A stretch of DNA of 31,289 nucleotides from positions 1 through 31,289 of IMG/VR virus record IMGVR_UViG_3300025127_000008; one strand, 5' to 3'. Position numbers and translations under genes: made by a program. The notes beneath the pieces were generated by a model, which saw nothing but the letters and a program-made list of their open reading frames with translations, was not told where the DNA came from and searched no databases. How positions within the stretch are numbered: position 1 is the stretch's first letter; the number at the start of each line of letters is the position of its first letter. Below are positions 9,855 to 31,289 of the stretch, piece after piece. The DNA comes from a virus.

Positions 9855-9995
9855 ATGGAAAATATTAGACTTTGGGCAGTAAATAGTATGGCAGTTGGCT
9901 TTAGTCTTGTAAATATAAATATGATATTATCAACTTTAGTATTAGTAGCTTCTTTAGTATGGACTATAATACAAATAAAAGATAAGTTAAAATGA
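9855..9995 (+). CDS. Small single-pass membrane protein, holin-like
   Basis: This is a 46-residue protein. After MENIRLWAVNSMAVGF comes one strong membrane helix at about residues 22-41 (ILSTLVLVASLVWTIIQI) and a short basic tail KDKLK. It starts three bases after the fibre gene and overlaps the next gene by four bases (ATGA). With three further small membrane proteins nearby and an endopeptidase, it is probably part of the lysis module, for example a holin or antiholin. No sequence motif proves this. Confidence 0.65.
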   Translation: MENIRLWAVNSMAVGFSLVNINMILSTLVLVASLVWTIIQIKDKLK

Positions 9996-10396
9996 AACTT
10001 CCAAAGAACGGTACAGCAAAAGAAATACGAAGTTATGCAGGAAGCCTTTTTGTATTTCTGTTTATAGTTGGAATAATAATAACGTTTGTACAGTTTCCTG
10101 TTTTAGAATCTAACAAAGAGATCGTGCTAATGTTGATTGGCTCTATCGCTGCTTCGATTCCTGTCTTAATTTCAGCCATAAGTGGCACACGACCTGATGA
10201 TGTAAATGCATTGAAATCAGCAATAGAAAAAAAAGAACATCAAATACAAATGCTTGTAGATGCTAAAGATAGATTAGAAGAAATGGTTATAAACCTACAA
10301 AGAGAAATGCTACAAAATCAAGATATGATGCTTGACCGTATCTTATTAAAGAGTGCTATGGACTTTGATGACAAAAACAATAGAAATGAAAAATAA
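9992..10396 (+). CDS. Two-pass membrane protein with coiled coil, holin-like
   Basis: This is a 134-residue protein with hydrophobic helices at about residues 17-35 (GSLFVFLFIVGIIITFV) and 45-65 (IVLMLIGSIAASIPVLIS), then a charged helical region at about 75-120 with coiled-coil heptads (EKKEHQIQMLVDAKDRLEEM). Two membrane helices followed by a soluble helix fit a class II-like holin or a membrane anchor of a lysis complex. It overlaps both neighbours in other frames, consistent with a coupled lysis operon. Confidence 0.65.
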   Translation: MKLPKNGTAKEIRSYAGSLFVFLFIVGIIITFVQFPVLESNKEIVLMLIGSIAASIPVLISAISGTRPDDVNALKSAIEKKEHQIQMLVDAKDRLEEMVINLQREMLQNQDMMLDRILLKSAMDFDDKNNRNEK

Positions 10397-10466
10397 ACCT
10401 AAATGTAAATGTGGATGCACAAATAACGCAGAAGGTTATTGTGATGGTTCACACCTAAATAAATAA
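10386..10466 (+). CDS. CDGSH-like iron-sulphur microprotein
   Basis: A 26-residue frame starts at 10386, overlapping the holin-like gene by 11 bases, and ends two bases before the next gene's ATG at 10469. It reads MKNKPKCKCGCTNNAEGY and continues CDGSHLNK. The motif C-x-C-(9)-C-D-G-S-H matches the 2Fe-2S ligand set (three Cys, one His) of CDGSH domains, with one extra residue between the second and third cysteine compared with the usual C-x-C-(8)-C-D-G-S-H. The exact fit into the gap and the intact ligand set argue that it is a gene. A role in lysis or redox sensing is unknown. Confidence 0.65.
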   Translation: MKNKPKCKCGCTNNAEGYCDGSHLNK

Positions 10467-10468
10467 AT

Positions 10469-10636
10469 ATGGATGTTTTAATAATTATAATTTCAATAAT
10501 AATGTTTGCTACTGCAATAATGATGGGGCTTACTGTTTACGGACTTTTTACCGACAAAGACAAAGATGGTATACCTGATGCATTAGAACAAAAATTTAGC
10601 GAACTAAAAGAAGAAATTAGTAAGTTGAAAAAATGA
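10469..10636 (+). CDS. Single-pass membrane protein with calcium-binding-like loop
   Basis: This is a 55-residue protein. Residues 3-26 form a membrane helix (very rich in Ile and Met), followed by DKDKDGIPD at about 29-37, which is the D-x-D-x-D-G-x-x-D pattern of EF-hand and thrombospondin type 3 calcium loops, then an amphipathic charged helix (QKFSELKEEISKLKK). It overlaps the endopeptidase gene by four bases (ATGA). The arrangement could serve as a calcium-responsive membrane anchor or a spanin-like part; this is inference. Confidence 0.62.
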   Translation: MDVLIIIISIIMFATAIMMGLTVYGLFTDKDKDGIPDALEQKFSELKEEISKLKK

Positions 10637-11001: not shown

Positions 11002-11073
11002 ATGGAACAATTAATAACAGGTTATATTATGTTTCGTTTGTTAGAATTTTTAATAAGGAAAACTTTTGGCTGA
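11002..11073 (+). CDS. Possible 23-residue hydrophobic peptide
   Basis: A short frame reads MEQLITGYIMFRLLEFLIRK and ends TFG. It is amphipathic or membrane-seeking. It lies between the endopeptidase and the 3TM holin and overlaps the latter's TTG start by eight bases. It fills the only gap in the lysis module, but at this length chance is a real alternative. Confidence 0.3.
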   Translation: MEQLITGYIMFRLLEFLIRKTFG

Positions 11074-11482
11074 AAAAAAGAAATTTAAGGATACTAAAGT
11101 AGGTCAATTCTTACTTAACAAAATACCTGATGTAGTTGGTGCAGTAGCAGGTGATACACTTGCAGGTAATGTTATACAAGCTATTATAGGTGGTTCTGAA
11201 ATGAGTGATGAAGATAAGCAAGTTGCACTTAAAAAACTTGATATAGAACGTGCTGAAATAGATGGTGTTACAAGAAGGTGGGTAGCTGATGCAAGAAGTG
11301 GATGGTTGCCATCAAACGTAAGACCACTTACATTAATATTTCTTACAGTTGCTTTTGTTATTGGGTGGTATATGCAAATAGATGGTTTATCAATTGTTAA
11401 AGAACTTCTTTTTGTAGTTTTTGCAGGATATTTTGGAGGAAGATCGTACGAAAAGGTAATGGGTAATAAAAACCATCAGTAA
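11066..11482 (+). CDS. Holin, 3TM family (Holin_3TMs-like)
   Basis: This is a 138-residue protein. RRWVADARSGWLPSNVRPLT (71-90) is the signature of the three-transmembrane holin family found in gene transfer agents and many phages, with helices at about 88-103 and 108-122. Such proteins perforate the inner membrane at the end of infection. The start is TTG at 11066 (TTG GCT GAA AAA), preceded by AAGGAAAA, and overlaps the short upstream peptide; no ATG fits better. It lies directly after the endopeptidase and overlaps the next gene by one base. Confidence 0.78.
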   Translation: MAEKKKFKDTKVGQFLLNKIPDVVGAVAGDTLAGNVIQAIIGGSEMSDEDKQVALKKLDIERAEIDGVTRRWVADARSGWLPSNVRPLTLIFLTVAFVIGWYMQIDGLSIVKELLFVVFAGYFGGRSYEKVMGNKNHQ

Positions 11483-30775: not shown

Positions 30776-31289
30776 ATGGACATAGTAGAACTTTTTATAG
30801 ATGAAAATGATGAGGTTTCTGGAATAGAAGCAATATCAGTGGTAGAAAACCCAGCAATAGAAGAAAACTTTATAGCACTTAAAAATCAAGAGTTTAAACT
30901 TGCAGAAGTAGACAAGGAAAAACGTATACTTATGGGTGCTGCTTTGATACCTAACAAACCTATATACCGTACAAACGGTGAGCAGGAGTATTATATATAT
31001 TTTAGTCAAGCAACTGTAAGAAAAGCAAGTGAATTATTTTTTATAAAAGGTAACCAAAACAACTCAACATTAGAACACCAATTAGAACTTAAAGGTTTAA
31101 CTGCTGTAGAAAGTTGGATAGTAGAAAGTGAACAAGATAAAAGCAGAATGTACGATTTAAACGTGCCTATTGGTACTTGGATGGTATCTATGAAAGTTAA
31201 TAACGATGATGTTTGGAAAAAAGTAAAAGCAGGTGAGGTAAAAGGGTTTAGTATAGAAGGCTACTTTGCTGATAAATTAGAAAGACCTA
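30776..31289 (+). CDS. Prohead (capsid maturation) protease, XkdF-like/S78_2, N-terminal part
   Basis: The gene starts at ATG 30776, five bases after a late promoter motif, and continues across the circular junction into 1-618 (334 residues in total). The N-terminus reads MDIVELFIDENDEVSGIEAI with SVVENPAIEENFIAL, the usual opening of XkdF-like proteases in Bacteroidota phages. ILMGAALIPNKPIYR and STLEHQLELKG follow; H101 in LEHQ is the probable catalytic histidine. The serine (S159, GFSIEG) is inside the repeated 127 bases. The protein cleaves scaffold and capsid during maturation. Confidence 0.88.
   Translation, partial: MDIVELFIDENDEVSGIEAISVVENPAIEENFIALKNQEFKLAEVDKEKRILMGAALIPNKPIYRTNGEQEYYIYFSQATVRKASELFFIKGNQNNSTLEHQLELKGLTAVESWIVESEQDKSRMYDLNVPIGTWMVSMKVNNDDVWKKVKAGEVKGFSIEGYFADKLERP
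31163..31289. repeat. Terminal direct repeat, right copy (circular assembly overlap)
   Basis: It is identical to 1-127, and the reading frame is continuous from 30776 through this copy. Removing one copy gives the 31,162 bp circle. Confidence 0.95.

Follow-up and report, generated by a model that had tools for sequence, protein, structure and literature searches.

A putative 26-residue CDGSH-like metal-binding protein encoded near the lysis genes of a phage, and its relatives in phages and marine bacteria

Background

Does a reading frame of only 26 codons near the lysis genes of a phage encode a protein, and can so short a loop bind metal in the manner of the CDGSH iron-sulphur proteins? The frame is found in a viral contig of 31,289 nucleotides, analysed here at its full length and referred to as the window, whose terminase is closest to those of Flavobacterium phages (50.7% identity). 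An exact 127-bp terminal repeat (positions 1-127 and 31163-31289) indicates that the genome is probably complete, and an XkdF-like open reading frame (ORF) spans its joined ends.

The published CDGSH motif is C-X-C-X2-(S/T)-X3-P-X-C-D-G-(S/A/T)-H (PMC5859297). In the CISD proteins the CDGSH module must be paired and is supported by a beta-sandwich with an N-terminal strand and a P motif, the residues Phi1, P11 and Phi12 forming the dimer interface (Lin et al. 2011, PMC3174974).

Methods

Related loci were retrieved by means of the endolysin; ten of the 80 were too short to judge, leaving 70. The x9 family was defined by the motif CxCGx(T/S)xxxxGxCDG(S/T)H, which has nine residues between the second and third cysteines in place of the canonical eight (x8), found either in chains about 22-60 aa long or as a tail, tandem or fused module. 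Pattern searches returned at least 120 x9 matches each in viral and in genome collections, and were complemented by a pattern-free profile search, with no residue fixed, of 396 genomes of one family.

Results and discussion

A tightly packed gene near the lysis genes

The features of the locus are listed below.

9855-9995, + strand: 46-aa small membrane protein, with a weak match to T7-type holins (PF10746, E 0.016; phrog_920, E 0.0088)
9992-10396, + strand: 134-aa membrane and coiled-coil protein, the direct upstream neighbour, holin-like at most
10386-10396, + strand: start/stop overlap of 11 nt with the upstream gene, ATGAAAAATAA
10386-10466, + strand: mini-CDGSH (x9) gene, 26 aa and TAA; product MKNKPKCKCGCTNNAEGYCDGSHLNK
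10404-10454, + strand: 17-residue x9 motif CKCGCTNNAEGYCDGSH
10404-10406, 10410-10412, 10440-10442 and 10452-10454, + strand: codons of the putative ligands C7, C9, C19 and H23
10469-10636, + strand: 55-aa single-span membrane protein, the direct downstream neighbour, with an EF-hand-like loop
10633-10983, + strand: M15 peptidase endolysin (PF08291, E 2.8e-17; phrog_894, E 1.7e-30)
11066-11482, + strand: holin-family protein (phrog_3427, E 1.3e-11)

The frame, coordinates and sequence of the CDGSH-like peptide proposed in an earlier, sequence-only reading of this DNA are exact, and the four expected ligands with one extra residue in the Cys-to-Cys spacing were confirmed, the arrangement being C-x-C-x9-C-x3-H with six residues N-terminal and three C-terminal to the motif. 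When CxCGxTx4GxCDG(S/T)H was turned into a degenerate DNA pattern, it matched the window once and none of 100 dinucleotide shuffles.

The ORF begins within the final codons of the upstream gene, and its stop lies 2 nt before the next ATG (10469). Relatives are equally tightly packed, with start/stop overlaps of 4 nt at 15 loci and of 11 nt at 14 loci, and the next ATG is mostly 2 nt beyond the mini-CDGSH stop in the lysis-region relatives. The overlap ATGAAAAATAA is consistent with translational coupling to the upstream gene. A frameshift product of that gene was also considered and was set aside because the overlaps vary among the relatives (4, 8 or 11 nt, or none) and the ATG is conserved. 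Judged from its sequence, 10386-10466 is a real, tightly packed gene with its own start within a late operon.

The precise fit between two lysis genes, as originally described, holds for the packing but not for the neighbours, neither of which has a confirmed lysis function. For the 134-aa protein, the holin resemblance comes from a relative with a phrog_297 match (E 0.017). A lysis function is confirmed for the M15 endolysin, which lies downstream of the mini-CDGSH gene with one gene in between, and for the phrog_3427 holin-family protein beyond it. The EF-hand-like calcium loop of the 55-aa protein, DKDKDGIPDALE, is perfect, and a similar loop is present in 17 of 20 distinct relatives.

Conservation among related phages

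A small motif-bearing ORF was identified just upstream of the endolysin in 39 of the 80 loci, always with nine residues between Cys2 and Cys3, while two further loci (L004 and L005) carry the variant CKCGYTNNAEGYCDSSH (CDSSH), an inexact motif in which all four ligands are retained. The mini-CDGSH is thus present in the lysis region of 41 of the 70 judgeable relatives, and Cys7, Cys9, Cys19 and His23, whose loss in relatives was one of the outcomes said to refute the idea, are kept in all 41. From the remaining 29 it is missing altogether, the neighbours being joined directly and the cassette otherwise intact, and it is therefore an accessory gene in this phage group. The pN/pS over the motif in the lysis group is about 0.21, i.e. 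per-site synonymous change is about five times the nonsynonymous, a value to be taken as indicative only, since the search pattern had itself prescribed some sites at the loci found with it. The fifth cysteine that the sequence-only reading had remarked upon (C-G-C) is present in the window peptide but is not a family feature: of 44 distinct lysis-cassette motif sequences, 24 have C and 17 have N at its position, where most other x9 members have K, Q, R or N.

That the frame is a chance ORF might be argued from its length of 26 codons and from the fact that no family library annotates it. This explanation is effectively refuted by conservation of the sequence despite synonymous change, conserved start/stop packing, clean presence or absence and the occurrence of homologues in bacteria. 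The conservation pattern thus indicates that the mini-CDGSH gene is real, constrained and accessory in this phage group.

A family shared by phages and bacteria

The window peptide, a 26-aa chain with the full motif, belongs to the x9 family as defined above. Among the matches listed, the bacterial members are mostly 25-30 aa long and come from marine Flavobacteriaceae and their relatives, others being Paenibacillaceae proteins (MGKCACGNTQNAEGNCDGSHAKKDK) and tandem proteins of Opitutae; the phage copies are free proteins or tails on other proteins. Nearly all members retain both the CDGSH signature and the (S/T) that follows CxCG. The profile search gave 22 strong places (E < 1e-11), with the full x9 motif in all 21 that were read, followed by a gap, below which a few variants lacking the His (CTCGETIHPQGWCDGFGQYIC, CSCGQTTNPNGLCDWFGTYSC) precede the canonical x8 CDGSH domains. 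The gap, with canonical domains among the matches that rank next, indicates that x9 is a discrete family whose wider kin are the CDGSH domains. Three sequences (L494, L495 and L502) have x9-like openings and lack the CDGSH His, two of them having a later Cys (CDGFGQYIC, CDWFGTYSC), which is perhaps a ligand swap. Organisms with x9 may or may not also have canonical CDGSH proteins.

The Pfam model zf-CDGSH (PF09360) does not match the window peptide and scores 11-20 bits in those x9 relatives that it matches, all members tested falling under its cut-off of 29.5. No credible NCBIfam match to x9 members was obtained and no PHROG model captures the family; tblastn of the peptide against cultured phages likewise gave nothing credible, a weak evidence of absence for so short a query. 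A description of the family was not found in the open-licence literature on CDGSH with phages, auxiliary metabolic genes or YceI. Thus, x9 appears to be a widespread family common to phages and marine bacteria that is apparently undescribed. Small-gene filters and family libraries can miss whole families, x9 being outside Pfam, NCBIfam and PHROGs, with none found in cultured phages.

Comparison with CISD proteins and zinc modules

The x9 sequences share with the CISD/NEET proteins (PF09360, types 3, 4 and 6) the C-x-C...C-D-G-(S/T)-H ligands and the (S/T) after CxCG, and hhalign aligns x9 with canonical CDGSH at a probability of 95% (E 3.6e-8). The differences lie in the spacing and the scaffold. 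All members read have the x9 spacing, whereas CISD proteins have x8 with S/T-X3-P-X-C; the x9 proline, where present, is shifted to three residues after the T, and a Gly occupies position -2 before CDGSH. At the interface, residue 1 is mostly K/Q in place of Phi1, P11 is absent and Phi12 is matched in part (Y/F/L/N). The beta-sandwich dimerisation module (N-terminal strand and P motif) is absent, and there is too little sequence ahead of the motif to accommodate the strand: among the matches listed, 80 of the 100 viral x9 sequences and 103 of the 124 bacterial ones have their first Met at most 15 aa from the motif. Since the x8 spacing, P11, Phi1, the N-terminal strand and the beta-sandwich are lacking, x9 was placed outside CISD and regarded as a variant related to CDGSH proteins, with a possibly similar mode of action.

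Two other groups come close to x9. Strand-less x8 mini-CDGSH proteins of viral contigs (e.g. L362, 24 aa) are likewise tiny, start near the first Cys and occur in phages, but their spacing is canonical and their proline is at its usual position. Type 6 CISD proteins (MmCISD/Miner2) have two CDGSH motifs per chain, as do the Opitutae x9 proteins; however, they possess the strands that build the beta-sandwich, where the Opitutae tandems have linkers of about 7-17 aa. Canonical x8 motifs occur in viral contigs (L350-L429), many of them in tiny proteins without the strand; of 95 distinct ones, 49 are preceded by 15 residues or fewer.

The top PDB sequence matches of x9 are CDGSH structures (3tbm and 3tbn), with weak E-values. 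An AlphaFold2 model of the window peptide has a pLDDT of about 82 over the motif but a pTM of 0.30, and is not confident overall; AlphaFold2 may be reproducing the CDGSH loop. Foldseek matched it to only two PDB entries, the CDGSH proteins 3tbm and 3tbo (19 aligned columns, rmsd 1.2-1.3), which is not significant alone, and with a second structural aligner, VIA-align, no match reached a Z of 2. The tandem Opitutae protein was poorly modelled (pLDDT 54.5).

The same three cysteines and one histidine could instead hold a single Zn2+, x9 being then a small zinc-knuckle module with a structural or protein-binding role, whether free or appended as a tail. SEC-C zinc motifs are likewise short, CxCG-led modules found as tails on unrelated proteins, but they have no CDGSH and their second half is different. 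A zinc knuckle would suit the autonomy of x9 at 17-26 aa, its tandems with variable linkers, the loss of the CISD dimer-interface residues, the Cys-rich His-less relatives, and the tails on such unrelated proteins as the ribosomal protein bS16 (L300), a PSP1 protein (L219) and an XkdF-like phage protease (L106, L182). It accords less well with the nearly invariant CDGSH signature and (S/T) after CxCG, with nearest profile and fold matches that are all CDGSH proteins and none a zinc knuckle, and with the redox-flavoured bacterial neighbourhood described below; it is considered possible, although not the probable reading. Tails of the x9 type were also observed on other PSP1-domain proteins (L310 and L321).

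Bacterial context

The bacterial copies occupy loci without lysis genes. In about 57 of 120 bacterial loci among the matches listed, the x9 gene begins shortly after a YceI gene, and genes for NADPH-dependent FMN reductase, MarR, HxlR and rhodanese are recurrent neighbours. Three ORFs of Flavobacteriales-type genomes (L228, L243 and L492) encode, in frame, an N-terminal x9 motif, a hydrophobic segment and a YceI domain, the third ending at a contig edge with a YceI score under the cut-off. These fusions suggest a cytoplasmic location for the metal module, with YceI on the opposite side of the membrane. YceI lipocalins carry ubiquinone or other isoprenoids and, with cytochrome b561, counter lipid peroxidation in Burkholderia (PMC9113575). 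The YceI and redox-gene context favours a redox role and hence an iron-sulphur site, without being proof.

Association with the lysis module in phages

The x9 genes of phages are placed between a 134-aa membrane protein and a 55-aa single-span protein, as in the window, in the gap between the single-span protein and the endolysin, before the endolysin, after the endolysin and holin, and elsewhere. Among the matches listed, 87 viral copies are distinct, and 42 of these share a stretch with a homologue of the window endolysin or holin, to which x9 is nearer than are most of the other genes (mean rank fraction 0.20 for the 42 copies and 0.18 for the 23 loci of other cassette types, lacking the 134-aa gene). 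The test presupposes that the stretch contains a lysis gene, and it overstates independence, the phages being related. These placements support an association of x9 with the lysis module beyond its position in a single genome. The link to lysis drawn in the sequence-only reading is therefore borne out as proximity to M15 endolysin or holin homologues in several arrangements, but many phages carry x9 elsewhere.

In a more specific form of this link, x9 would be a dedicated lysis-timing device, the cluster sensing the redox or iron state and altering holin triggering. The frequency and closeness of lysis homologues given above, and the position of x9 before, between and after lysis genes in various phages, speak for such a device, which is nevertheless improbable in view of the limits of the proximity test, the 29 relatives with an intact cassette and no x9 gene, and the copies lying elsewhere in phages and outside lysis loci in bacteria. 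Less probable still is that x9 delivers metal as a chaperone, or buffers it, for the M15 endolysin, a zinc-dependent enzyme that it adjoins at many loci, since M15 endolysins are widespread in cultured phages, where no x9 gene was found, and x9 also occurs beside chaperonin genes or inside a capsid-protease protein.

Proposed function

The best reading of x9 is a portable mini-CDGSH module. That the window gene encodes a stand-alone x9-type CDGSH metal-binding loop is about evenly balanced as a claim in full; as to the metal, the sequence comparisons and gene neighbourhoods make [2Fe-2S] slightly the more probable choice, with zinc as a serious, if less than probable, rival. In the preferred [2Fe-2S] form, C7 and C9 would hold one iron and C19 and H23 the other iron of a labile cluster. 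An NPxG-type turn would replace the canonical proline segment, so that the loop might fold alone or pair without the CISD beta-sandwich. The peptide would be a small cytoplasmic carrier, of redox or Fe-S/metal type, working next to membrane partners, presumably YceI in bacteria and the holin-like and single-span lysis-cassette proteins in these phages, which would use it late in infection in an accessory function. An effect on the membrane redox state or on lysis is possible, while control of lysis timing and a role as a virion cofactor are speculative.

In the widest form of the proposal, x9 and the strand-less x8 proteins would together be a large, so far unmapped class of autonomous mini-CDGSH modules that bind [2Fe-2S] without a paired beta-sandwich, act alongside YceI in bacteria as portable redox modules and have been taken up repeatedly by phages (in lysis, capsid-protease and chaperonin settings), connecting membrane redox with late infection; as a whole this is rather unlikely. 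With a conserved loop of 17 residues that occurs alone, in tandem with short linkers or appended to unrelated proteins, one could test directly what a CDGSH cluster minimally requires, and phages would have a metal or redox gene at the lysis stage that has been overlooked.

Other x9 modules in phages

Several XkdF-like protease proteins (PF14550; L106, L121, L126, L127, L130, L133, L182 and L187) carry a C-terminal x9 tail of the form SKTxCxKNxxCxCGx(S/T)...CDGSHLK, which is possibly located in or near the capsid. An x9 gene lies directly upstream of a GroEL-like gene in L147 and L150 and, in a different group of phages, of a small GroES-like gene in L095, L097, L120 and L152, the chaperonin calls being made by eye and the small GroES-like gene having no Pfam or PHROG match. 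The idea that a phage x9 fusion partner is an Acb2-like sponge found no Pfam or PHROG support and was rejected. Two C-terminal tails recur after the x9 motif in viral sequences, ..LF[DE]MN[NS]LPFPYL (L098, L109, L110, L159 and L192) and ..LDQNEDVPFADKF (L125, L136 and L200), and look like partner-binding motifs.
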